A stretch of DNA of 64,000 nucleotides, from NCBI GenBank assembly GCA_947625905.1, contig CANQQJ010000009.1, positions 1-64,000 on the forward strand. The letters run 5' to 3'. Position 1 is the stretch's first letter; the number at the start of each line of letters is the position of its first letter. A program made the position numbers and the translations under genes. The DNA comes from an uncultured Clostridia bacterium. GTDB lineage: Bacteria > Bacillota > Clostridia > Monoglobales > Monoglobaceae. Of the stretch, positions 41,865 through 53,930 are shown piece by piece. The notes beneath the pieces were generated by a model, which was given only the letters and a program-made list of their open reading frames with translations, searched no databases and was not told where the DNA came from.

Positions 41865-42884
41865 TTATCTGTTCGAGTACATTTTATCGTAGTAGTCCGT
41901 ATATTCGCCGCTGATTATTTCCTCCCACCAGGAGCGGTTCTCAAGGTACCATTTGATCGTCTTTTTTATGCCGTCGGCGAATTTTGTCTCGGGGAGCCAC
42001 CCGAGCTCGCCGTGGATCTTGGCCGGGTCTATGGCGTAGCGCAGATCGTGCCCCTTCCTGTCGGCGACGAAGGTTATAAGGCTCTCGGGCTTGCCGAGCT
42101 CCTTTAATATTATCTTCACGATGTCTATGTTGCGCATCTCGTTATGGCCGCCTATGTTGTAGACCTCGCCCACGCGGCCTTTTTGGAGTATCAGGTCTAT
42201 CGCCTTGCAGTGGTCCTCAACGTAGAGCCAGTCGCGGATGTTCTCGCCCCTGCCGTATACGGGCAGCGGCTTGTCGTTCAGCGCGTTGGCGATCATCAGC
42301 GGTATCAGTTTTTCGGGAAAGTGATACGGGCCGTAGTTATTCGAGCAGCGGCTTATCGTGACGGGCAGGCCGTACGTCCTGTGATACGCCAGCGCCAGCA
42401 GATCGGCCGACGCCTTCGAGCTGCTGTAGGGGCTCGAGGTATGCAGCAGCGTTTCCTCGGTGAAAAACAGGTCGGGGCGGTCGATGGGAAGATCGCCGTA
42501 GACCTCGTCGGTCGAGACCTGGTGAAAGCGCTCTGTGTCAAACTTTCGGCAGGCGTCCATCAGGACAGACGCGCCGATAATGTTCGTCCTTAAAAACACA
42601 TCCGGGCTCTCTATCGAGCGGTCAACGTGCGACTCAGCCGCGAAATTCACGACAACGTCGGGCTTTTCGCTCTCAAAAAGAGCATACACAGCCTCGCGGT
42701 CGCAGATGTCTGCCTTGACAAATTTGAAATTCGGCTTGTCCATAACGTCTTTCAGCGTCGAAAGATTACCCGCGTAAGTCAATTTGTCGAGGCAGATCAC
42801 TCGGTATCCGGGGTGGTTCTTGAGCGTGTAAAATATAAAATTGCTGCCTATAAATCCGGCTCCGCCGGTCACTATTACAGTCAT
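41865..42884 (-). CDS. rfbB: dTDP-glucose 4,6-dehydratase
   Basis: A 339-residue extended SDR enzyme converting dTDP-glucose to dTDP-4-keto-6-deoxyglucose. It has the NAD motif TGGAGFIGSNFI, the catalytic STDEVYGDL region and YSSSKASADL (YxxxK). It is the last gene of the glycan operon, 2 bp after rfbA. No rmlC or rmlD is present, so the product is probably not used for rhamnose here but for the amino sugar made by the DegT enzyme. Confidence 0.97.
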   Translation of the reverse strand: MTVIVTGGAGFIGSNFIFYTLKNHPGYRVICLDKLTYAGNLSTLKDVMDKPNFKFVKADICDREAVYALFESEKPDVVVNFAAESHVDRSIESPDVFLRTNIIGASVLMDACRKFDTERFHQVSTDEVYGDLPIDRPDLFFTEETLLHTSSPYSSSKASADLLALAYHRTYGLPVTISRCSNNYGPYHFPEKLIPLMIANALNDKPLPVYGRGENIRDWLYVEDHCKAIDLILQKGRVGEVYNIGGHNEMRNIDIVKIILKELGKPESLITFVADRKGHDLRYAIDPAKIHGELGWLPETKFADGIKKTIKWYLENRSWWEEIISGEYTDYYDKMYSNR

Positions 42885-42886
42885 AA

Positions 42887-43759
42887 CTATTCCTCCAAAA
42901 GCGACAGCAGATACTGTCCGTAATCCGTCATACTCAGCTCCCGGCCTATCTCTTTGAGACGCTTATCGTCGATAAAACCTCTGCGCCATGCTATCTCCTC
43001 GATGCATGAAATATAGAAGCCCTGCATCTCCTGGACGGTTTTGACAAAGCCGGCCGCCTTGTGCATGCCCTTGGGCGTGCCCGTATCGAGCCACGCCATG
43101 CCGCGGCCCATGAGCGTCACCTTGAGCTTGCCGCGCCTTAGGTACTCGTTGTTGACCGAAGTGATCTCGATCTCGCCCCGCTCCGACGGCTTGACGTTTT
43201 TCGCGATCTCCGCGACATCGTTATTGTAAAAATAAAGCCCCGGCACCGCGTAGCCCGACTTGGGCTTGCTCGGTTTTTCCTCGATCGAGATAACGTTATG
43301 GTCGTCGTCAAACTCGACAACTCCGAACTGCTTGGGATTTTTGACGGGATAGCCGAATATTGCCGCGCCGACGGTCTCGGCCTGTTTTTTCGCGCGGCTG
43401 AGTATGCCCGAAAAATCCTGACCGTAGAACACGTTGTCGCCGAGCACCAGGCACACGCTGTCGTCTCCGATAAAGTCGGCGCCTAAGATAAACGCGTCGG
43501 CAAGGCCCCTGGGCTCGTCCTGCACCGCGTACTCAAAGCGCACGCCGATGCGCGAGCCGCCGCCCAAAAGATTTCTATAGTTGTCGGTATCCTGCGGCGT
43601 TGAGATAATAAGTATATCCCTGATCCCCGCCAGCAGCAGTACCGACAGCGGATAGTATATCAGCGGCTTATCATATATCGGTAGCAGCTGCTTCGATACT
43701 GTGAGCGTCATGGGATAAAGCCGCGTCCCGCGCCCACCCGCCAAGATTATACCTTTCAT
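42887..43759 (-). CDS. rfbA: Glucose-1-phosphate thymidylyltransferase
   Basis: A 290-residue nucleotidyltransferase that makes dTDP-glucose. The N-terminal [34 protein letters not shown] and [10 protein letters not shown] are canonical RmlA segments. It supplies rfbB directly downstream. Length is normal. Confidence 0.97.
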
Positions 43760-43785: not shown

Positions 43786-45360
43786 TTATTTTGAGACTAT
43801 GTATACATGTGAATATAATTTTTCATTATTTTTGTACTTTGTATTTTCGCTCAGTTCTTCTAATATTTTATCAGCGTCATATCCGCTCGACCATTCTTTA
43901 TCCGTGTCAATAAAAACAATGATTTCATCGGGGTCACCGTAAGAATTAAAATAATCCTTCATCGCCTCAGAATTAGTGTTATTTGTCACAAATACATCGT
44001 TAAACCTCATCAACTGCGGCAAGCTGTGCGTAAGCGGAACATTTGAATTATTATCAAAATAAACACAAGGTTCATCCGCATATTCGTCGATTATATCGTT
44101 GTACTCTCTGTAATCCAAATACACATAGCTTGGTCTTAACACAAAGAGCGCCGCAAGCGACAACACCAATAACATTATCGCAAATTTATCCGATAAAAAT
44201 GTTTTCATTATATTAATTTTGTTTAACACATATATCGCTAAGCTGACCGTCAGCACTATGATCGGACTTATGTTATACACATATCTTTCAGCAAAAACGG
44301 GACTTATGATTCCGATAATTAGTATTGATATATATGCAGGAACAATAATGATCAACGCCCGCCAAACGCTGTCGTTTTCGCGAAATATATTTTTAATATC
44401 CTTCAGCTTTCCGTTTTTGATTATTAACACAAGCGCCAAAATTCCGACGATTACTGCAATCAGCATGTGCTTTGCGACCATTATTAAATAGTATATGAGC
44501 TTCGCCGCGTTATCTGTTAAATTAAACAAATTATCGAGCGCGTTCTGTCCCGACACAAGCTTGTCCGCAAACAAGTGGTCAATACACGCCGGAAATGCAA
44601 AATACACACATACAACACCGGCTAAAGCAAACAACATAAAGCACAACAAACTTTTGTATTTTTTACTTATCAACAAATATAAACATACTGCCGCACATAA
44701 AATAGCCGCGTATATCGCAAAGTAGTATTGAGTGAACAAACCCAAAAATATCACTATTGTAATCAGCGGATATATGTATCTCTTTCCGGTTTGCAGCAGC
44801 AAAACCGTAAGATACGCCAGCAAGACCGTAAGCAGAGTAAGTAAAACATACATTCTTATCATAATAGCCGTAGATAACCCTATAGTGCTTAAGCCGTACA
44901 AAATCAGCGTTATAACAGCAATTCTGTCACTTGCGAATAATCTTTTGCAAAGTTTACACAAAACACACAATGTCAGGATATATATGACAAAATCAAGCGC
45001 AAGAGCTTTGTACTTGCCGAACGAGTACCCCCCCCCGATCAAGGATGAAAGCGTGTGCAGAATATATGCATAAAGCGGGGGATGAACATCATTCACATGA
45101 TTTCTGTAAACACCCGCATAGTCAAATTTATTATCCTCAGCCGAAACCAAATCAAAAAACTCTTCCTGCGTTATAACCTTGTCAACCACGCTGTCACCTT
45201 TTATCGAGTTGCTGTTTCCGCAAAACGGCATCATCTCACCGTTTGCCATGCAATACATATATGTCTCGTCTATAAATAAACTCGATTTTAATATGCCGAG
45301 TAATACAAATGTTATCAATATGATGGCGAAAGATATAATGTATAGCTTGTTCCTTTTCAT
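43786..45360 (-). CDS. GT39/ArnT-like membrane glycosyltransferase with a G9 tract
   Basis: A 524-residue protein with about eleven membrane segments. The first outer loop has the acidic FIDETYMY pair and [11 protein letters not shown], as in polyprenyl-phosphate-sugar-dependent glycosyltransferases of the PMT/ArnT fold. A C-terminal outer domain follows residue 410. It could transfer a lipid-linked sugar to the glycan on the outside. Codons 109-111 are an uninterrupted run of nine G (45028-45036): one extra G gives a stop about 12 codons on, one fewer about 20 codons on. The gene is AT-rich, suggesting transfer. Confidence 0.85.
45028..45036 (-). repeat. G9 homopolymer tract in the GT39-like gene
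   Basis: Nine G on the coding strand in the context GTACCCCCCCCCGATC (plus strand), the same 16 bases as at 47492-47507. Such tracts mutate by strand slippage; both neighbouring lengths cause early stops. Confidence 0.9.
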
Positions 45361-45378
45361 AATATTATTCTCCTTGTA

Positions 45379-46473
45379 TTATAATAATATTATATCGCAG
45401 ATCATGTCAACTTCATCCGGTGTCAGATCGGCGTAGAGCGGAAGCGTCAATATATTCTCGGCCGCGTGTTTGGCGTTCGGCGTGGGCTGCACCTCAAATC
45501 TGCCGGCGTAGCACTCAAGCTCGCTTGTTATGGGATAGAAATACTTTCTGGCGAAAATATTGTTTTCGGCGAGCTCCGCCGCTATCTTGTCGCGGCTCTT
45601 GCCGAACTTATCTTTGTCAAACAAAACGGGAAAGTAGGCATAGTTGGGTTTTACACCAATTTGAGGTTTCCAAACCTTTACTCCGTCGATCCCGTCAAGG
45701 CGTTCGATATAGCGTTTTACCGCTCTGCCTCGCTTCTCTATCTCGGCGTCCACATGGCGCAGGTTGCACAGACCCATGGCCGCGCGGAACTCGTCGAGCT
45801 TGGCGTTGCCCGCGACCTCGGGATAGCTGTCCTGCGTCTCCATCCCGAAGTTCTTTTGCATGCGCAGCTTGTCGGTCAGCGAATCATCATGATATGCGAC
45901 CGCTCCGCCCTCTATCGTGTTAAACACCTTGGTGGCATGAAAGCTGAGCATAGACGCGTCGCCGAAGTCGGCCGCGCCCTTTTCTCCGACGCGCACGCCG
46001 AAAGCGTGGGCCGCGTCGTATATGACCTTCAGGTTATGCTTTTTGGCGATCTTTTCTATTTTTTCTACATCACAGATATTGCCGTAGACATGCACGGGGA
46101 TTATCGCCGAGGTCTTTTCGGTTATCAGCGCCTCGATCTTGTCGGGGTCGATAGTAAAGTCGCCGGGCTTTATATCGCAGAACACGGGCGTCAGGCCGCA
46201 GCGCACTATCGCCTGCGTTGTCGAAGCGAAAGTGAAGGGCGTGGTTATCGCCTCGCCCGAAAGCCCGAGGGCGGCTATAACGCTCTCAAGCGCCAAATGT
46301 CCGTTGGTAAACAGCGAGATATTTTTTACCGACAAATACTCGCGAAGTTTTTCCTCAAGCTCGTTATGCTTCACCCCCATATTGGTGAGCCATCGGCTCT
46401 CCCAAAGGGGCTCTATTTCTTTTATATACTCCTCAATCGGCGCCACAGACGAGCGCGTAACATTGATTTGCAA
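45379..46473 (-). CDS. DegT/DnrJ/EryC1/StrS-family sugar aminotransferase
   Basis: A 364-residue PLP enzyme of the nucleotide-sugar aminotransferase family, with ALGLSGEAITTPFTFAST, PVHVYGNICDVE, VIYDAAHAFGV and the PLP lysine in SFHATKVFN. With rfbA and rfbB in the operon and no 3,4-ketoisomerase, the simplest reading is 4-amination of dTDP-4-keto-6-deoxyglucose to a dTDP-4-amino-4,6-dideoxyhexose. That is inference; gluco or galacto product cannot be told. It is 19 bp upstream of the GT39-like gene. Confidence 0.92.
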   Translation of the reverse strand: MQINVTRSSVAPIEEYIKEIEPLWESRWLTNMGVKHNELEEKLREYLSVKNISLFTNGHLALESVIAALGLSGEAITTPFTFASTTQAIVRCGLTPVFCDIKPGDFTIDPDKIEALITEKTSAIIPVHVYGNICDVEKIEKIAKKHNLKVIYDAAHAFGVRVGEKGAADFGDASMLSFHATKVFNTIEGGAVAYHDDSLTDKLRMQKNFGMETQDSYPEVAGNAKLDEFRAAMGLCNLRHVDAEIEKRGRAVKRYIERLDGIDGVKVWKPQIGVKPNYAYFPVLFDKDKFGKSRDKIAAELAENNIFARKYFYPITSELECYAGRFEVQPTPNAKHAAENILTLPLYADLTPDEVDMICDIILL

Positions 46474-46492
46474 AATATCATCATTCCTTTTT

Positions 46493-47680
46493 TTATTCCC
46501 ACCAGAAAAATTTTTCCGGCTTCCAACCTATCAGATCTTCAAGTTCATGTTTTGTGCCTCTTTGCAAAACAATCTGCCATACAAATTCGCCGTAAGTATT
46601 GGCTTCAATTACGCACCATCCTTTTTTGGACAACGCAATATCCCAGCCTACAAATCGCACCTCCGGAACGGCGTGTCCTATCTTATCAATCATTGAAAGA
46701 AGCTCATCCCACTTCGGGATCTGAAATCCTTTTAATTTTACGCCGGTTGACGGGTGACATACGTATTTACCAAGATGCTCGTCATATCCGTCAGTATTTA
46801 TAATGCCTGTTTTAGCGTCGATGCCCGCCATAACGCTTCCCGCCTGCGCACTGGCAATAAAATTGTTGTTTTTACCTATTTTGATCCAGGGATAAAATAA
46901 ATGGACCTTATCGCCGACTCTGAAAGTATTGCAGCGCAAACAGTTTATTGACGCGGGGTGAAGGCTTGCCATAGTATCTTCCTGCTCTATCAATTCCTCA
47001 AGCACCAATTTACCGGATTCGCGCTTTCTGATCATAGGATGATACTCTGACGCATCTATATTTTTCTCATTAAGAATTTTTTTGAATTCCTCTTCTAAAT
47101 TACAGTCATTTGATAAAGCAACTTTGTGAACACCCATTGCAAGGCCGAATTCTTCGGGCTTTACCACAAACTCTCGATGCTTTGCGACAAAATCGCGAAA
47201 TTTATCGTAATCATCATCTTTTTCGATACGTATTATATCTCGCAAATAATATTCTTTTAAAGCGCAATACGCCTCATATTTGTTTTCAAGTCGATCAGCG
47301 GCTTCGGTATCGTTTAAATAATCAAGATACATCATACGATTCCTTAAAGTTAAAAACTTGTTTTTTTCCGCATGACTTTTTTCATAAAAGCTGTAATATA
47401 TTTCCTCTTCTATAGTGCTGCCGTATACCCAATAATCATATATCGAATGATAAAACAGTTCCTCTTTGTTCATGCCGCCAAATAATAAATCGGTACCCCC
47501 CCCCGATCCGTTTTCGGCGTTTCTCTGCGAAATGATCTTGAAGTCGCTGTCAATTCTGTCTCGAATATAATCGGTCATATAATCGTTATATATATCCGTT
47601 CTGGTCTCATAGATCTTTTTTCCGATCGAAATTTTCTCGTTTAAATCATCGGTGATCTTCACAAAATTTTTCATGTCCAT
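46493..47680 (-). CDS. ATP-grasp protein of the sugar-transfer-associated type, with a G9 tract
   Basis: A 395-residue protein whose C-terminal half is an ATP-grasp domain (FVVKPEEFGLAMGVHK, KLVLEELIEQEDTMASLHP, VRFVGWDIALSKKGWCVIEAN). Such proteins occur in capsule and surface-glycan clusters and are thought to attach an amino acid or acid group through ATP-activated ligation. The N-terminal 170 residues are helical and charged. Nine G at 47496-47504 encode part of Ser59-Gly60-Gly61-Gly62-Thr63; a gain gives a stop about 20 codons later, a loss about 10 codons later. AT-rich. Confidence 0.82.
   Translation of the reverse strand: MDMKNFVKITDDLNEKISIGKKIYETRTDIYNDYMTDYIRDRIDSDFKIISQRNAENGSGGGTDLLFGGMNKEELFYHSIYDYWVYGSTIEEEIYYSFYEKSHAEKNKFLTLRNRMMYLDYLNDTEAADRLENKYEAYCALKEYYLRDIIRIEKDDDYDKFRDFVAKHREFVVKPEEFGLAMGVHKVALSNDCNLEEEFKKILNEKNIDASEYHPMIRKRESGKLVLEELIEQEDTMASLHPASINCLRCNTFRVGDKVHLFYPWIKIGKNNNFIASAQAGSVMAGIDAKTGIINTDGYDEHLGKYVCHPSTGVKLKGFQIPKWDELLSMIDKIGHAVPEVRFVGWDIALSKKGWCVIEANTYGEFVWQIVLQRGTKHELEDLIGWKPEKFFWWE
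47496..47504 (-). repeat. G9 homopolymer tract in the ATP-grasp gene
   Basis: Nine G on the coding strand within GTACCCCCCCCCGATC (plus strand). The same context occurs in the GT39-like gene 2.5 kb away, though in a different reading frame, so it was not kept for protein sequence. Confidence 0.9.
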
Positions 47681-47757: not shown

Positions 47758-48519
47758 TTATGACGAAAGGCTGCCGCCGTCGATATCGACATTAGAGCCG
47801 GTTATAAACTTTGACGCGCCGCTCAAAAGAAACGCGATCAAGTTAGCCACGTCTATCGGTTCGCCCAGACCGAGATATTGTCTGTTCATAACGATTTCGG
47901 CGTCTGCACTGCCCTGGCCGTTGTCCAAAAACTGCTGATATATATCAGTATCAATAAATGCGGGAACAACGGAGTTTACTCTGATCTGTTTCGGAGCAAG
48001 CTCTTTGGCAAGGCATTTTACCGAAACATCCATCGCGGCTTTTGATGCGCAGTAAGCCGTTTTTGTCTGATTGCCGCGCTTTGATGAGATCGACGATATA
48101 CCAACAATGCTCATGCCGGGATTAAAGCATTTTCTTTTGGTGATGCAACGTATCACTTCGACAAAAGCGTAGTAATTTATCGTCATAACATCGCGCAGAA
48201 CGGAAGGCTTCAGCATTTTAAGCGGTCTGTAACTGGTAATTCCCGCGCTGTGGACAAAGCCGTCAAGCGGACCGGTCTCTGATATCAAACGCTTGATAAA
48301 ACCCTCGATCTCATCCGTTTCGCTCAGGTCAAAGATATAGTAACAATGCCCATCGCCATCAAGGCTTGCCAAAACCTCTTTGAGCTTGTCCTCGCGGCGG
48401 GCGACCATAATCACCTTAGCGCCCAGTCTTGAGCAGAGTCTCGCGGTCTCCGCCCCCATTCCCGACGAGGCTCCCGTGATTAGTATTTGTTTTCCCGTTA
48501 AATCAATTACATTATACAT
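47758..48519 (-). CDS. SDR-family reductase, FabG-like (copy A)
   Basis: A 253-residue short-chain reductase with TGASSGMGAETARLC (cofactor site) and the catalytic Ser and Tyr-Lys in GISSISSKRGN and AYCASKAAMD (YxxxK). VARREDKLKEV after the second strand suggests NADPH preference. It directly follows a KAS III-like gene and resembles the second SDR at 49655, so a keto-acyl-ACP reductase role in the operon's own acyl pathway is likely. Confidence 0.88.
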   Translation of the reverse strand: MYNVIDLTGKQILITGASSGMGAETARLCSRLGAKVIMVARREDKLKEVLASLDGDGHCYYIFDLSETDEIEGFIKRLISETGPLDGFVHSAGITSYRPLKMLKPSVLRDVMTINYYAFVEVIRCITKRKCFNPGMSIVGISSISSKRGNQTKTAYCASKAAMDVSVKCLAKELAPKQIRVNSVVPAFIDTDIYQQFLDNGQGSADAEIVMNRQYLGLGEPIDVANLIAFLLSGASKFITGSNVDIDGGSLSS

Positions 48520-49617
48520 TTACATATCCTCCGGTGAATTAATTAATCCTTCTTCAAAATATTCGTCGGTCTCGATGATCGGAAAAATGTCGCCCGTGTT
48601 TAACTTTGCGGACAACACTCCCCACGAAAGTCCTACGCCGAAACCGCACATCAGGGCGTTTATATCTTTATTATCATCCGCATCTCCGTAAGCGTCACAC
48701 AGAACCAGCGGTATCGCGGGAGCCGATGTGTTTCCGAACTTGTCAATACAGAGCGGCATTTTGCCCGGCTCGACCTTAAGTTTTTTGATCAGCTGCTTGT
48801 GTATGAACTTGTTTGCCTGATGAAAAGCAAAGCAGTCGTAGTCATCAACAGTTGTGTCCGACTTTTTAAGGAAATCCTTTACCGTCCTCGGAACATCGGT
48901 TATTGTAAAACTGAACACGTCGGTTCCGTTCATGTTTATGTTATAAAGCGTTCTTGGATTGCCGTCGGGCCACATAATAATATCTCGAGGCGCGTCCATG
49001 TTTCTGAATCCGCCCGCGGGAGCGACGATCGCCTTGTAGCCCGAACCGTCTGTGCGGAGCAAGGCTTTGATATCCGAATCCTCCTCGGTTTTCTCAAGCA
49101 GCGCGGCGGCTCCGCCGTCGCCGAACAGCATGGCGGTCGACCTGTCGCCCGGGTTGACCATTTTTGTCATTGTCTCGCCCACAATAACCAGAGCCTTGTC
49201 GATATCAGAGCACTGCATCATCGCGGCGGCGGTCTGGACGCAGTAAACAAACGCCGAGCAGCCGAGACTTATGTCAAAAGCCGCACATTCCTTTGAAAGC
49301 CCGAGCCTTTTGTGCAGCACACAGGCTGTGGCGGGCCTCCTATAATCGGTAGAGTGAGCGCCGAAAACCAAAGCTCCGATCTCGCCGCGGTCAATATTTC
49401 TTTCGGTCAATATCTTCTCGGCGGCGGCAAATCCCAGGTCGGACGCGGTCTGATGCTCCGCAGCTTTCCGCGTCTCGCGCACTCCTGTCATTTTTGAAAA
49501 CTTATCTACCGCCTCGTCTCCGAATCTCGGCTTAAAGCTCTCGACGCTGACCTTTTCGGTCGGCAGTGCGCTGCATAAAGCGCTTATTTTTATATTATTA
49601 AAATTAAAATACGGCAT
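48520..49617 (-). CDS. KAS III-like 3-oxoacyl-ACP synthase (copy A)
   Basis: A 365-residue thiolase-fold condensing enzyme. The catalytic Cys120 is in DISLGCSAFVY, the His in AFHQANKFI and the Asn in DKFGNTSAPAI, the FabH-type triad. A C-terminal tail ending near ETDEYFEEG is shared with copy B and is not usual for FabH. The start at 49617 (MPYFNFNN) follows GGGGGAT. It is 1 bp from the SDR gene downstream. With copy B, SDRs and ACP it should build or prime a special acyl chain. Confidence 0.9.
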   Translation of the reverse strand: MPYFNFNNIKISALCSALPTEKVSVESFKPRFGDEAVDKFSKMTGVRETRKAAEHQTASDLGFAAAEKILTERNIDRGEIGALVFGAHSTDYRRPATACVLHKRLGLSKECAAFDISLGCSAFVYCVQTAAAMMQCSDIDKALVIVGETMTKMVNPGDRSTAMLFGDGGAAALLEKTEEDSDIKALLRTDGSGYKAIVAPAGGFRNMDAPRDIIMWPDGNPRTLYNINMNGTDVFSFTITDVPRTVKDFLKKSDTTVDDYDCFAFHQANKFIHKQLIKKLKVEPGKMPLCIDKFGNTSAPAIPLVLCDAYGDADDNKDINALMCGFGVGLSWGVLSAKLNTGDIFPIIETDEYFEEGLINSPEDM

Positions 49618-49654
49618 AAGCAAATCCCCCAAAATCAATAATATCTTATTATAC

Positions 49655-50410
49655 TTAGGTCAAATAACCACCATCTATAACCAAACCTGTTCCGGTAATA
49701 AATTTCGAAGCATCGGAAAGCAAGTAAGCAACAGCATAAGCAATATTTTCTTTATCAATTACACCCAAATATTGCTTATTATACAATTGTTCAATCGAAT
49801 TTTCATCATACCTATTAAGAAAATTTTCAAACATTCGCGTTTTAATCATACCCGCAGTTATTGCGTTAATCCTTATATTTTTATCCGCCAGTTCTTTCGC
49901 GAGAACATTAACGGAGCCTTCGATCGCTGCCTTTGAAGCTGCATAAGCAGACTGGGCTTTGTCACCGCTCCTGGCAGAAACGGATGACATAACAACGATA
50001 CTTCCGGAACCGTTATTATTGCACTTTTTCGAAAAAACTCTGACCAATTCAAAATATGAATAAAAATTAACAAGCATTAACTCATGAATGACTTGGTATT
50101 TCATTTGTCTTAAAGGTCTTGCAACTGCGACACCCGCGCAATGCACAATACCGTCAAGTTTGCCGTTTTCGCTTACAATTTTTTTTACCAACAACTCTAT
50201 TTCGTCAATATTTGATAAATCAAAACTGTAACAAGCATGGCCGTCACCGTCAAGCATTTTATATATATCACGCAGCTTTTCTTCTCGTCTGGCAACCATA
50301 ATAACTCTTGCGCCGAGATTGCTTATCAATTTGCAAACACTTTCTCCGACACCGTCAGAGGCGCCAGTTACAAGTACTGTTTTGTTTTTAAGATTTAATA
50401 TATTATTCAT
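49655..50410 (-). CDS. SDR-family reductase, FabG-like (copy B)
   Basis: A 251-residue short-chain reductase with TGASDGVGESVCK, VMSSVSARSGD and the catalytic AYAASKAAIEG (YxxxK). It is a clear paralogue of the SDR at 47758 but more AT-rich. The start at 50410 (MNNILNLKNK) has GGAGT 4 nt upstream; a longer open frame reaching into the ACP gene is rejected. It follows the ACP gene, fitting reduction of 3-oxoacyl-ACP to 3-hydroxyacyl-ACP. Confidence 0.88.
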   Translation of the reverse strand: MNNILNLKNKTVLVTGASDGVGESVCKLISNLGARVIMVARREEKLRDIYKMLDGDGHACYSFDLSNIDEIELLVKKIVSENGKLDGIVHCAGVAVARPLRQMKYQVIHELMLVNFYSYFELVRVFSKKCNNNGSGSIVVMSSVSARSGDKAQSAYAASKAAIEGSVNVLAKELADKNIRINAITAGMIKTRMFENFLNRYDENSIEQLYNKQYLGVIDKENIAYAVAYLLSDASKFITGTGLVIDGGYLT

Positions 50411-50477
50411 AGTTACTCCATTTTTAATATGCCGCGGAGAATTTACTATTGTTCCCCGCGGCAAATTATAATTACTA

Positions 50478-50696
50478 TCAGCCCATGTAATTAAGGATAT
50501 CGCCAACGGTCTTAAATGTCATTATCGTGTCTCCGGTAAGCTTTTTCTCAAACTCATCGCTCATAAGCACAATAAGCGAAAGCTTAGACATTGAATCCCA
50601 CTCGTCAAGTTCATCGAGAACGGTGTCAGCCGACAGATCTCCCTCGTCAAGCTCAAACATATCCTCAAGCAAAGCCAATTTCTCTTTCTCGGACAT
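50478..50696 (-). CDS. Dedicated acyl carrier protein
   Basis: A 72-residue acidic four-helix protein with the phosphopantetheine attachment Ser35 in EWDSMSKLS (DSM instead of the DSL of fatty-acid ACPs) and IVLMSDEFEKKL. GGAG precedes ATG at 50696. It lies between the two KAS III-like genes and the two SDR genes, so it is the likely carrier of the acyl group. The AcpS-NnrD fusion elsewhere in the window could activate it. Confidence 0.92.
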   Translation of the reverse strand: MSEKEKLALLEDMFELDEGDLSADTVLDELDEWDSMSKLSLIVLMSDEFEKKLTGDTIMTFKTVGDILNYMG

Positions 50697-50749
50697 AATC
50701 GCTCCTCCTTTCAGCAAAATAATAATATAGTAAACGCGTATAATGCGTT

Positions 50750-51826
50750 TTACGCATGCTCGATATGATCCTCGTATCCATCGTCAAAGTATTCATCGGT
50801 CATAAGAAGCGGCAAAATATCACTCTTTTCGAGCTCAATCGAAACGGCGCCCCACGACAGGCCGATGCCGAATCCGCAGAGCATCGCTTTTACCGATCCG
50901 TCATTATCGTCTCCGTAATGCTTTGTCAGCGCTGTGGCGATCGAAGTGGAGCTGGTATTGCCGAATTTATCAATCGACAAAAGATTCTGTTTTGATGAAA
51001 AACCCGCGCGGCGAGCCACATTCTTCATTATCAGCTTGTTGGCCTGATGAAGGATAATACAGTCATAATCTTCGGGCTTGGTTCCGATGTCGCGCATCAA
51101 TTCTTTGATAAGCGCGGGCGGCTTTTCTATAGCGAAATTAAAAACATCTATGCCGTTCATATATGACATCTGCGGACCTTCAAAATGCCTTTCGCCGCCC
51201 CACGGTTTTATTACGGCTTTAAAACCGCTGCCGTCGGTGCGCATAGCCATATCAAGCGGCGGCGCGACGCCGGTCTTTTCAAACAGCATAGCGCAGCCCG
51301 CGTCACCGAAAAGTTTGGCCTCGTTGTCCTCTCGGTCTACCCAGCCTTTTTCAATATAGCGTCTTTGATTCTTTCCGGTGGTGTCACCCGCCATCAAAAG
51401 CGCGTATTTCACGTTTGACGACTCCATGATTCCCGAAACGATGTTGATCCCGTACATAAGGCCCGAACAGCCGAGATTCACATCAAACGCCATACAGTCA
51501 TCAGACATCCCTAATCTGTTTTGCAAAACGCAGGCGGTCGCGGGCTCAATATAGTCGGGCGTTTGAGTAACAAAAACCAAAAGCCCTATATCCGCGGGAT
51601 CAACTCCGTCATGCTTTACGGCACTCATTGCGGCAGCATAACATAAATCGGCGGTGGTTTGCTTGTTCGACGCATCATATCTGCCCTCGACGCCGGTGCT
51701 TTTTTTAAACTTAGCAATATTTTTCTCGTCGGGCTCATTAATAAATTCCTCAACCGGCGTCCATTTTGACGGCACGGCTGTCACGAGAGCCTTGACTTTT
51801 ATATTATTAAATGAACTTTTTATCAT
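50750..51826 (-). CDS. KAS III-like 3-oxoacyl-ACP synthase (copy B)
   Basis: A 358-residue paralogue of copy A with the same triad: Cys120 in DVNLGCSGLMY, His in ILHQANKLI, Asn in DKFGNTSSTSI, and the same type of tail (LMTDEYFDDG). VFVTQTPDYIEPATACVLQ is the usual KAS III substrate-entry segment. It is the first gene of the acyl module (KAS III, ACP, SDR, KAS III, SDR). Two synthases could act in series or on different primers. Confidence 0.9.
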   Translation of the reverse strand: MIKSSFNNIKVKALVTAVPSKWTPVEEFINEPDEKNIAKFKKSTGVEGRYDASNKQTTADLCYAAAMSAVKHDGVDPADIGLLVFVTQTPDYIEPATACVLQNRLGMSDDCMAFDVNLGCSGLMYGINIVSGIMESSNVKYALLMAGDTTGKNQRRYIEKGWVDREDNEAKLFGDAGCAMLFEKTGVAPPLDMAMRTDGSGFKAVIKPWGGERHFEGPQMSYMNGIDVFNFAIEKPPALIKELMRDIGTKPEDYDCIILHQANKLIMKNVARRAGFSSKQNLLSIDKFGNTSSTSIATALTKHYGDDNDGSVKAMLCGFGIGLSWGAVSIELEKSDILPLLMTDEYFDDGYEDHIEHA

Positions 51827-51837
51827 AATTTATCTCC

Positions 51838-52491
51838 TTAAAAATCTACGCGCTTTGCGGGATTACCCATAACAAGAGTATTTTCCTTAACTTTTTTGAT
51901 CACAACGCTGCCCGCTCCTACGCGCGAATATGCTCCGACTTTAACGTGAGGGCAGAGAACCACATGACTGCCGAGAAAAACTCCGTCGCCGACCGTCACA
52001 TATCCCGATATGGCGCACGCAGGGCAAACGGTCGTGTAGCTTCCGATAACTGCATCATGACCTATTGTAGTATAAGCATTAAACAAGTTAAAACTGCCAA
52101 TTTTGACATCCGTGGAAATTCTGGTGCCGTTCTGAATAATGTTTCCCACACCAAGCTCCGCGGAATCAGCAATACCCGCGTTAGGCGACACAAGATTTAT
52201 AAACTCGGCGCCTTTGTCCAAGAATTCCGAAGTGATCCTTTTTTTAAACGGTATATCCGCTATCGCGAAAACATAGACATTATTATCGGAAATCTCATGG
52301 TCCTTTATGGTACCGATAATATCATAACCATGCGTGTTTTTTTCATAAAAATCTCCCGGTATGTCCGTGATAAAGCCTTTGACGCGCCACGGAGTTTCGG
52401 GTTTACGTCGAATAATATCAAGCGCAAGCCGAAGAGCCTCGCGTCCGAGACCTCCCGCTCCTATTATAACCAAATCTTTCATATTTTTCAA
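51838..52491 (-). CDS. NeuD/PglD/VioB-type sugar acyltransferase
   Basis: A 217-residue left-handed beta-helix acyltransferase. The N-terminal Rossmann-like part binds the nucleotide sugar (LVIIGAGGLGREALRLA), and hexapeptide repeats fill the C-terminal half (VGNIIQNGTRISTDVKIG, TTIGHDAVIGSYTTV, VTVGDGVFLGSHVVL, VGAGSVVIKKV), with the general-base His in TIGHDAVIG. It should acylate the amino group made by the DegT enzyme. Being next to the ACP/KAS III genes, the donor may be acyl-ACP or acyl-CoA from that module. Confidence 0.9.
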   Translation of the reverse strand: MKNMKDLVIIGAGGLGREALRLALDIIRRKPETPWRVKGFITDIPGDFYEKNTHGYDIIGTIKDHEISDNNVYVFAIADIPFKKRITSEFLDKGAEFINLVSPNAGIADSAELGVGNIIQNGTRISTDVKIGSFNLFNAYTTIGHDAVIGSYTTVCPACAISGYVTVGDGVFLGSHVVLCPHVKVGAYSRVGAGSVVIKKVKENTLVMGNPAKRVDF

Positions 52492-53930
52492 CCCCTCTTA
52501 AAGTCTTTTACAGTGTTTATTATAAAGCTCATACTCTCAAATTTAAACAGCTTTGCCCCCGCGGTGTATATTATTATTCCGGCGATGACCTGTATTATCA
52601 TTGTGAGGATGCTTCCGAGCCCAATCATATTTACGCTCAGAACAATGCCACCCATCGCAAGAGACAAAAGCATAGCCGGCAAAACATCCCTCATTTGCTC
52701 AAAATAGCTGTAGTCAAGCAATTTTTTGTTTGGCGAGGCGTTGCAGAACGCGCACAAAATCGTTGAGACGCAGTTTCCTATCATCATAACGTAAAGTCCG
52801 TGTTTAATCGTAACTATCAGCGTTATCACGCCTATGGTCTTTTTAACTATCTCAAGCTTTAAAAAAATATCACTTCGTCCCACCGCCTTGATAGCCTGGA
52901 GATTCGATGTGTGAATAGGCCAGAAGGCGTATGTAAAACAGCAGAACTGGATAAACGGCACCGCGGGCAGCCACTTCTCGGTCAAAAGAAACACCGTCAG
53001 CGGTCTCGCTACCGCTGCAAGTCCCGCCATGCACGGAAATATAAAAAACGTGCTGGTCATAATCGAGCGGCGCATCATACCTTTGAGTTGTTTTCTATTG
53101 TCCTGCGCTCCCGACAGTACCGGAAAGAGAACGCTGTCGATAGCGCTGTTTATATTCGTAATAATCAACTGCGGGAACTGCTTTCCGCGGTTATAGTACC
53201 CGAGATCGGATTCAGAATAGAACTTGCCTATCACAAGCGAGTATATATTGTTATACACCGTGTCAAGCAGAGCCGAGCACAGGATTTTCCAGCCGTAGGA
53301 AAAAAGCCTCTTCATGCGCTTTATCGAAAACACGATGTTAGGGCGCCACTTGACCGTCAGCCACAATATGATCGTGTCGATTATCTGATTTGAAAGCTGC
53401 TGACCAACAAGCGCCCAAACACCTCCGCCCGCATACGCTATTCCTATGCCCACAAAAGCCGAGACAATTGTACCGCCCAGCGTCGCCCAGAAAAAGCGCT
53501 TGAACTGCATTGTTCTCTGCACATACGCCTGCTGCACGCTGTTTACCGCCGCGATTATTACACTGAATCCCAAAACGCGCACAACCGGCGTAAGCTGCGG
53601 CATATCGTAAAACCCCGCGATAAACGGAGCACAAAGGAAAAGCACAAAATACAGTACAATCGAAAAGGCTATGCTGTAAAAGAAAACCGTTGAAAAATCT
53701 GTATTATCGGCATCCTTTTTCTGCACCAAAGCGCTTCCGAGACCGCTTAGAGCAAACACTTGCGCGATCGCTATAAACACGGTTATAAGGCCTATTATTC
53801 CGTAGTCTGCGGGCATCAAAAGCCTTGCCAGAACGATCGAAACTATAAACTGTATTCCCTGCGCTCCGCACCTCTCGGCATACCGCCATATAAGACCGGA
53901 AATCGTCTGTTTTTTTATATCACGGCTCAT
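52488..53930 (-). CDS. Wzx-type polysaccharide flippase
   Basis: A 480-residue MATE/MVF-fold membrane protein with about 14 hydrophobic segments (ISGLIWRYAERCGAQGIQFIVS at the start; YYNRGKQFPQLI in the middle loop) that moves lipid-linked oligosaccharides across the membrane. It overlaps the acyltransferase gene by 4 bp. Its presence implies a repeat unit assembled inside and exported on a lipid carrier; no Wzy polymerase or initiating transferase was identified in the operon. Confidence 0.92.
   Translation of the reverse strand: MSRDIKKQTISGLIWRYAERCGAQGIQFIVSIVLARLLMPADYGIIGLITVFIAIAQVFALSGLGSALVQKKDADNTDFSTVFFYSIAFSIVLYFVLFLCAPFIAGFYDMPQLTPVVRVLGFSVIIAAVNSVQQAYVQRTMQFKRFFWATLGGTIVSAFVGIGIAYAGGGVWALVGQQLSNQIIDTIILWLTVKWRPNIVFSIKRMKRLFSYGWKILCSALLDTVYNNIYSLVIGKFYSESDLGYYNRGKQFPQLIITNINSAIDSVLFPVLSGAQDNRKQLKGMMRRSIMTSTFFIFPCMAGLAAVARPLTVFLLTEKWLPAVPFIQFCCFTYAFWPIHTSNLQAIKAVGRSDIFLKLEIVKKTIGVITLIVTIKHGLYVMMIGNCVSTILCAFCNASPNKKLLDYSYFEQMRDVLPAMLLSLAMGGIVLSVNMIGLGSILTMIIQVIAGIIIYTAGAKLFKFESMSFIINTVKDFKRG

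Follow-up and report, generated by a model that had tools for sequence, protein, structure and literature searches.

Introduction

Phase variation through poly-G tracts is a known kind of switch, found in Campylobacter, which also has phase-variable restriction-modification genes, and in Bifidobacterium breve, an actinomycete. We describe here two tracts of nine G (G9) in two genes of a predicted surface glycan locus in an uncultured Clostridia bacterium of the family Monoglobaceae. The tracts lie in a 64,000-nucleotide stretch of DNA (assembly GCA_947625905.1, contig CANQQJ010000009.1, positions 1 to 64,000), referred to below as the window. From comparison with related genomes, we consider them probable slipped-strand phase-variation switches (probability about 0.85) and part of a phasome that extends through the genus. 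If this holds, a whole genus would carry a Campylobacter-style phasome over surface glycans, surface proteins and DNA methylases.

According to the consulted passages of one study, Campylobacter jejuni has 12-27 phase-variable poly-G/C genes per strain, those shown being mainly capsule and lipooligosaccharide genes, and lacks a mismatch repair system (PMC4235727). The genus studied here is like C. jejuni in having a similar number of poly-G loci, surface-glycan genes among them and ON/OFF logic, but differs in that MutS domain I is present. In B. breve, G-tract slippage at sortase-pilus loci was measured by error-corrected sequencing and acts ON/OFF through fusion of open reading frames (ORFs) (PMC9187656). 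The likeness lies in G-tract slippage switching of a surface gene in a gut Gram-positive; unlike the present case, that system comprises two pilus loci, and the consulted passages mention neither glycan genes nor a shared flank (PMC9187656). Clostridioides difficile, by the consulted part of a review, has invertible promoters (PMC11868660), so that phase variation is described in a clostridial species, but by site-specific DNA inversion, whereas the present genus appears to use poly-G slippage. Passages of PMC13317340 and PMC2831843 were also consulted. The clostridial phase variation that we met in print is by DNA inversion; among the matches listed in the openly available literature, none dealt with poly-G phase variation in members of the Clostridia or with flanks common to poly-G tracts, which is not proof of absence. 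The new part of what follows is the shared flank context of poly-G tracts.

Two G9 tracts in one 16-bp context

The tracts, their contexts and the genes that carry them are as follows.

45028..45036, minus strand: G9 tract 1, GGG-GGG-GGG, codons 109-111 of the PMT_2 gene
45025..45040, minus strand: 16-bp context GATC-G9-TAC around tract 1, the same in the G006 orthologue
47496..47504, minus strand: G9 tract 2, TCG-GGG-GGG-GGT, codons 59-62 of the ATP-grasp gene
47493..47508, minus strand: 16-bp context GATC-G9-TAC around tract 2, within a segment of about 17 residues missing from the G003 homologue
43786..45360, minus strand: GT39/PMT_2-like membrane glycosyltransferase, 524 residues, in frame (ON); Pfam PMT_2, 1.6e-06
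46493..47680, minus strand: sugar-transfer-associated ATP-grasp protein, 395 residues, in frame (ON); Pfam ATPgrasp_ST, 1.8e-40

The two runs and their identical context, first reported in a preliminary description of this DNA, were recovered as claimed. On the coding strand the common 16-mer reads GTACCCCCCCCCGATC; it has exactly two copies in the 2.96-Mb genome, and the reversed 16-mer has none. As had also been noted, the tracts differ in codon phase, starting at the first codon position in the glycosyltransferase gene and at the third in the ATP-grasp gene, and no other such homopolymer occurs in the window: the longest other G/C run is six, while A and T runs reach eight. Under a first-order Markov model, 0.17 runs of nine or more are expected in the whole window (0.12 for C and 0.05 for G), so that G9 in two ORFs is far beyond expectation, as in contingency loci.

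Both genes are in frame in the assembly, in agreement with the preliminary description, and the PMT_2 domain of the glycosyltransferase scores 28.9 bits against a cut-off of 26.1. In silico, a change of one unit alters the frame of either gene: counted from the tract's first codon, loss or gain of one G leads to a stop after 20 or 14 codons in the glycosyltransferase gene and after 11 or 23 codons in the ATP-grasp gene. The truncation claimed earlier therefore stands, and its range of about 8 to 20 codons was close, the recomputed one being 11 to 23.

In the proposed mechanism, one G gained or lost in replication would shift the frame and truncate the glycosyltransferase after about 120-130 residues; the same slippage in the ATP-grasp gene would truncate its product after about 70-80 residues. 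A later slippage would restore the frame, and a clone would come to contain cells with different surface glycans. What was observed are the tracts, their spread through the genus, their sense-strand placement, the gene classes and the length differences between homologues; that a population switches, and that its glycans change with it, is what we infer.

The window genes in relatives

Among 38 genomes of the family, we found a single orthologue of the glycosyltransferase gene (G006; 68% amino acid identity, 355/524), with the same G9 tract, in frame. Of 121 shared fourfold sites in this pair, 54 are the same and 67 differ, and the 16-mer is identical; outside the three tract codons, no shared glycine is encoded by GGG in both genes. 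The tract bases thus stay all-G where synonymous sites turned over, which supports phase variation. Interruption of the tracts by synonymous changes in close relatives, named in the preliminary description as evidence against switching, is absent from this sole orthologue.

G006 also carries a tandem paralogue of the GT39-like gene (57% identity) that reads GAT GGC GGC GGA at the tract site and so encodes the glycines without a tract; the two adjoin at G006:C82 (L365, L108), one with a G tract and one without. The only close homologue of the ATP-grasp gene, in G003 (45-47% identity), has neither the tract nor the roughly 17 residues around it. Weaker matches occur in G026, G027 and G032; that of G026, used in the alignment only, has no tract, and the other two were left unused. 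Taken together, the orthologue, paralogue and homologue comparisons indicate gain and loss of tracts, from gene to gene and from species to species.

The G003 homologue would fit insertion of a ready-made tract cassette, but the glycosyltransferase gene differs from its tractless paralogue by only a few residues, so a common cassette is not supported.

Poly-G tracts across the genus

The tract pair is real, but it belongs to a wider set: the source genome (G000) has 19 tracts of at least eight G. Tracts of at least nine G (G9+) occur in 9 of the 12 genus genomes, at 105 places (4-18 per tract-bearing genome, a few of them dispersed repeats). The set that was fetched and oriented comprises 115 tracts with distinct context and at least eight G: 114 from the genus (104 of them G9+) and one from G017 (genus g5). 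Of the G8 tracts, those of G000, those in ATC context and those inside a fetched piece were sampled. The genus tracts comprise 10 of G8, 84 of G9, 9 of G10, 9 of G11 and 2 of G12. Run lengths in this DNA, which was chosen around tracts, have a second mode at G9 (46 runs of G6, 6 of G7, 10 of G8 and 103 of G9+).

A dispersed-repeat context rule set aside ten tracts, six of which read TGA-Gn-A, leaving 105 (104 from the genus and the one from g5) for placement. Thirty-five of these lie inside an ORF on its sense strand and 6 inside an antisense ORF. Of the 64 intergenic tracts, 48 are followed by a gene on their own strand and 10 by one on the opposite strand; for the remaining 6 the piece contains no next gene. 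These counts come from a simple ORF caller, which misplaced window tract 2 as intergenic with an opposite-strand neighbour. Several non-coding tracts lie 93-510 bp upstream of genes of 877 to more than 1300 residues, where slippage would likely act through a promoter or leader effect.

Length differences among homologues

Length differences between relatives, a property of contingency loci, were not seen at the two window loci but were observed, with a predicted ON/OFF consequence, in two other homologous sets. In the first (S1), a large surface protein with an LRR_5 domain in the G006 copy, the tract directly follows an apparent signal peptide (judged by eye). Three copies (G006, G009, G010) have a G9 tract that keeps the gene in frame; the G10 of G003 and the G8 of G008 put it out of frame. 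In the case of G009, the automatic call took a longer upstream ORF and reported a shift, whereas the shared 29-residue upstream frame is in frame. A G000 sequence (L047) that clusters with S1 by its downstream piece was left out; its G8 lies in a different glycine-rich place and is out of frame. In the second set (S2, with an FctA domain in the G003 copy), the tract is G9 and in frame in G008, and G10 in G006 and G11 in G003, both out of frame. In all four shifted S1 and S2 copies the downstream frames are open to the end of the fetched piece (1327-1461 residues), an argument against decay. At three sites outside long genes, G004 and G009 have almost the same flanks, and the tracts there read G9/G12, G9/G10 and G9/G8.

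Genes at or next to tracts

We chose 28 proteins, or pieces of shifted proteins, that eight genomes encode at a tract or directly after one, and scanned them with Pfam. Seven had no match at 1e-3 and two matched only below the family cut-off. The families found include Acyl_transf_3 (four times), MBOAT, GT2, Polysacc_deac, Epimerase and CTP_transf_3; three DNA methylation proteins (N6_N4_Mtase; N6_Mtase with Methylase_S; Methylase_S); and SLH, LRR_5, FctA, Big_5 and a GHKL kinase. The window genes add PMT_2 and ATPgrasp_ST. As in contingency loci, surface structures and restriction-modification are thus among the targets. Set against the usual list of phasome genes, a trimethylamine methyltransferase-like (MTTB) protein and an FAD oxidoreductase are exceptions. 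The DNA methylase and Type I specificity genes with tracts lie at L061:113-2080, L053:988-3009 and L135:3360-4628 and are phasevarion candidates of the genus.

The flanks C-Gn-T and RTC-Gn-TA

In the genus, 80/103 G9+ tracts with both flanks are C-Gn-T and 39/103 are RTC-Gn-TA (two same-context copies in G009 were counted once, and one contig-end tract lacks a flank). Runs of G3 to G7 in the same DNA (n = 10336, 1865, 286, 46 and 6) show C..T in 4-17% and RTC..TA in 0-0.3%. All three codon phases show the context (22 in-frame tracts, split 13, 6 and 3), and so does non-coding DNA. The earlier statement that protein sequence does not explain the common context holds genus-wide. Clustering by flank homology, with the flanks beside the tract masked, gave 40 clusters, and C..T is present in 30/40 representatives; one cluster of 59 tracts, chained by repeats, was counted once.

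For the class as a whole, we drew an even sample of 137 genomes and took tracts of exactly nine G in which positions -3 and +3 are not G. C..T flanks 20/24 of these in the genus and 3/43 in others (Fisher p 2.5e-10, with related tracts treated as independent); nine rows of genus g73 (G174, 4/5; G109, 0/4) were left out of the test. TC-G9-TA occurs at 48 sites in 17/393 class genomes and the reversed motif at none. Outside the genus, it is found in G017 and G034 of the same family, in four g73 genomes, and in G366, G399 and G408, and the flank context is thus also present in another genus of the class. C..T was seen in 24/41 G9+ tracts of five g73 genomes (four of which were chosen for having the motif), in 15/21 tracts of G366 (two of 23 were not fetched) and in 10/12 tracts of G399 and G408 (part of their tracts). 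For Campylobacter, we did not meet in its description the RTC-Gn-TA flank that is so strong in this genus, no Campylobacter genomes having been compared.

It is plausible, though somewhat short of an even chance, that this context is a by-product: pyrimidine neighbours would survive since A beside G easily turns into G, and some tracts would descend by copying from a small number of ancestral elements. Homology between some tracts is clear, as the chained cluster of 59 illustrates, and a transition bias would be expected to leave pyrimidines at both ends. However, such a bias leaves unexplained why C stands on the 5' side and T on the 3' side, A occupies +1 in 23/43 G9 tracts of other lineages, and the motif is common to tracts without flank homology.

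More tentatively, RTC-Gn-TA could be produced or required by a specific process: the flanks might promote slippage or the birth of tracts, or a protein might recognize them. The tracts would then be sequence-specified switches rather than arbitrary G runs, which would add to the switch reading. The excess of both flank forms over shorter runs points this way, as do the persistence of C-Gn-T in three-quarters of the clusters, the difference between the genus and others in the exact-G9 sample, the absence of the reversed motif from the 393 class genomes and the indifference to codon phase and coding. Against this, C-Gn-T is found in only 1/6 tracts of G109, in the second genus, and in 0/2 tracts of one Campylobacter phage, and in viral contigs of IMG/VR 76 stretches contain ATC-G9-TA and 48 the reversed motif. 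A universal flank preference is not supported by the phage, by the viral contigs or by the 3/43 of the class sample. The factor itself remains hypothetical, no candidate having been found. The stronger claim, that RTC-Gn-TA flanks specify phase-variable tracts in this genus and at least one other, with context-dependent mutation or a dedicated DNA-binding factor creating or maintaining them, we regard as rather doubtful. If it were true, switches could be found genome-wide from a short motif, coding and non-coding alike, and if the flank rule were causal, what besides length makes homopolymers contingency loci would become directly testable.

In some cases the tract pairs with a pyrimidine/CCGA stretch that lies upstream of it. 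Best-stem scores reach at least the 95th percentile of shuffles in 22/48 distinct upstream sequences outside long genes and in 7/41 beside a frame of at least 150 residues (36% of 89 when only 20 shuffles were used); an RNA hairpin as the general cause of the context was rejected on the latter figure.

G366 belongs to another family of the class. At seven of its loci (L148, L149, L215, L223-L225, L228), G9 as read by eye has a TTGAC-like box on one side and a TATAAT-like box on the other. This arrangement is the usual one for promoter spacers, and the loci appear to form a promoter-type phasome.

Switching weighed against other explanations

That the window tracts are phase-variable is supported by the homologue length differences with open frames, by the phasome gene classes and by tract bases kept all-G. 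Several observations weigh against it. No length variant was seen at either window tract (G9 in G000 and in the sole glycosyltransferase orthologue, G006), and the evidence at this locus comes from one assembly of one strain plus that single orthologue, all G9 and in frame; draft assemblies can, moreover, mis-size poly-G. No G9 tract was found in G001 or G011 (74% and 79% complete) or in the 400 kb read of the single-contig G002. Finally, PF01624 (MutS domain I) is over the cut-off in 12/12 genus genomes, so slippage is not simply explained by MutS loss, and a mismatch-repair-deficient hypermutator background through lack of MutS1 is not indicated.

The 400 kb of G002, out of 2.76 Mb, hold no G run longer than six, and C..T flanks one of the eight G6 runs. 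Loss of tracts in this genome through shortened homopolymers was considered and rejected on these two results.

It is very improbable that the tracts are fixed glycine-coding runs, or sites of programmed transcriptional or ribosomal slippage, instead of mutational switches. In its favour, both window genes are in frame, and the tractless glycosyltransferase paralogue also encodes Gly-Gly-Gly. Yet the tract uses only GGG, a rare glycine codon (34/458 glycine codons in 18 genes), and every letter of it is unchanged in the orthologue, where other glycine codons vary; many tracts are non-coding; and homologues differ in DNA length with a change of frame. An assembly or sequencing artefact is hardly credible: most genomes are drafts, poly-G is hard for Illumina in the consulted passages of PMC9187656 and PMC4235727, and 17/105 G9+ tracts lie within 500 bp of a contig end against about 4 expected (hand count, rounded contig numbers), but long reading frames continue through tracts, separate genomes share one orthologous tract and several homologous ones, context and strand bias are strict, and true variation in length, or repeats, would likewise account for contig breaks close to tracts.

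The surrounding locus and other long G runs

The assignment of the window genes to a surface glycan locus is by family membership, from which its product is predicted. Neighbouring genes of the locus are the following.

45379..46473, minus strand: DegT/DnrJ/EryC1 sugar aminotransferase, between the two putative switch genes; Pfam, 6e-93
42887..43759, minus strand: nucleotidyl transferase (sugar activation); Pfam NTP_transferase, 3.8e-75
41865..42884, minus strand: NDP-sugar dehydratase/epimerase; Pfam GDP_Man_Dehyd, 8.2e-86
47758..52491, minus strand: two SDR genes, two ketoacyl-synthase-III-like genes and one PglD/hexapeptide acyltransferase-like gene; Pfam
52488..53930, minus strand: polysaccharide flippase-like protein; Pfam Polysacc_synt_3, 7.6e-104

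Small ORFs around tracts in G004, G005, G007 and G009 form a family for which we claim no protein: counted by codon position, substitutions have no third-position excess in its tail (278/337/304) and a weak one in its head (326/445/494). A repeated element of about 240 nt has 20 copies in the same four genomes (for example L090:3954-4197, L114:3903-4146 and L132:3945-4188). In many copies the G tract is the 3' arm of a hairpin (CCTTTCTCCGAC-loop-GTCG9-like), and a terminator-like hairpin follows downstream. Computed folding energies of the 20 copies range from -69 to -96 kcal/mol (without a shuffle control), and six copies scanned gave no Rfam match; the element may act as RNA, or it may be a small gene subject to phase variation.

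A second kind of long G run, the intergenic ...CTGA-G8-11-A, recurs in G000 and G003 (L033, L034, L079, L081, L085). At seven further loci (L038, L046, L049, L083, L106, L120, L066), a similar CAAACAAAAAATCG-like upstream region is followed by G9-11, 85-186 bp before large ORFs. Five of these seven ORFs measure 1265-1375 residues within the piece and two are cut short, and the tract length varies among the copies.

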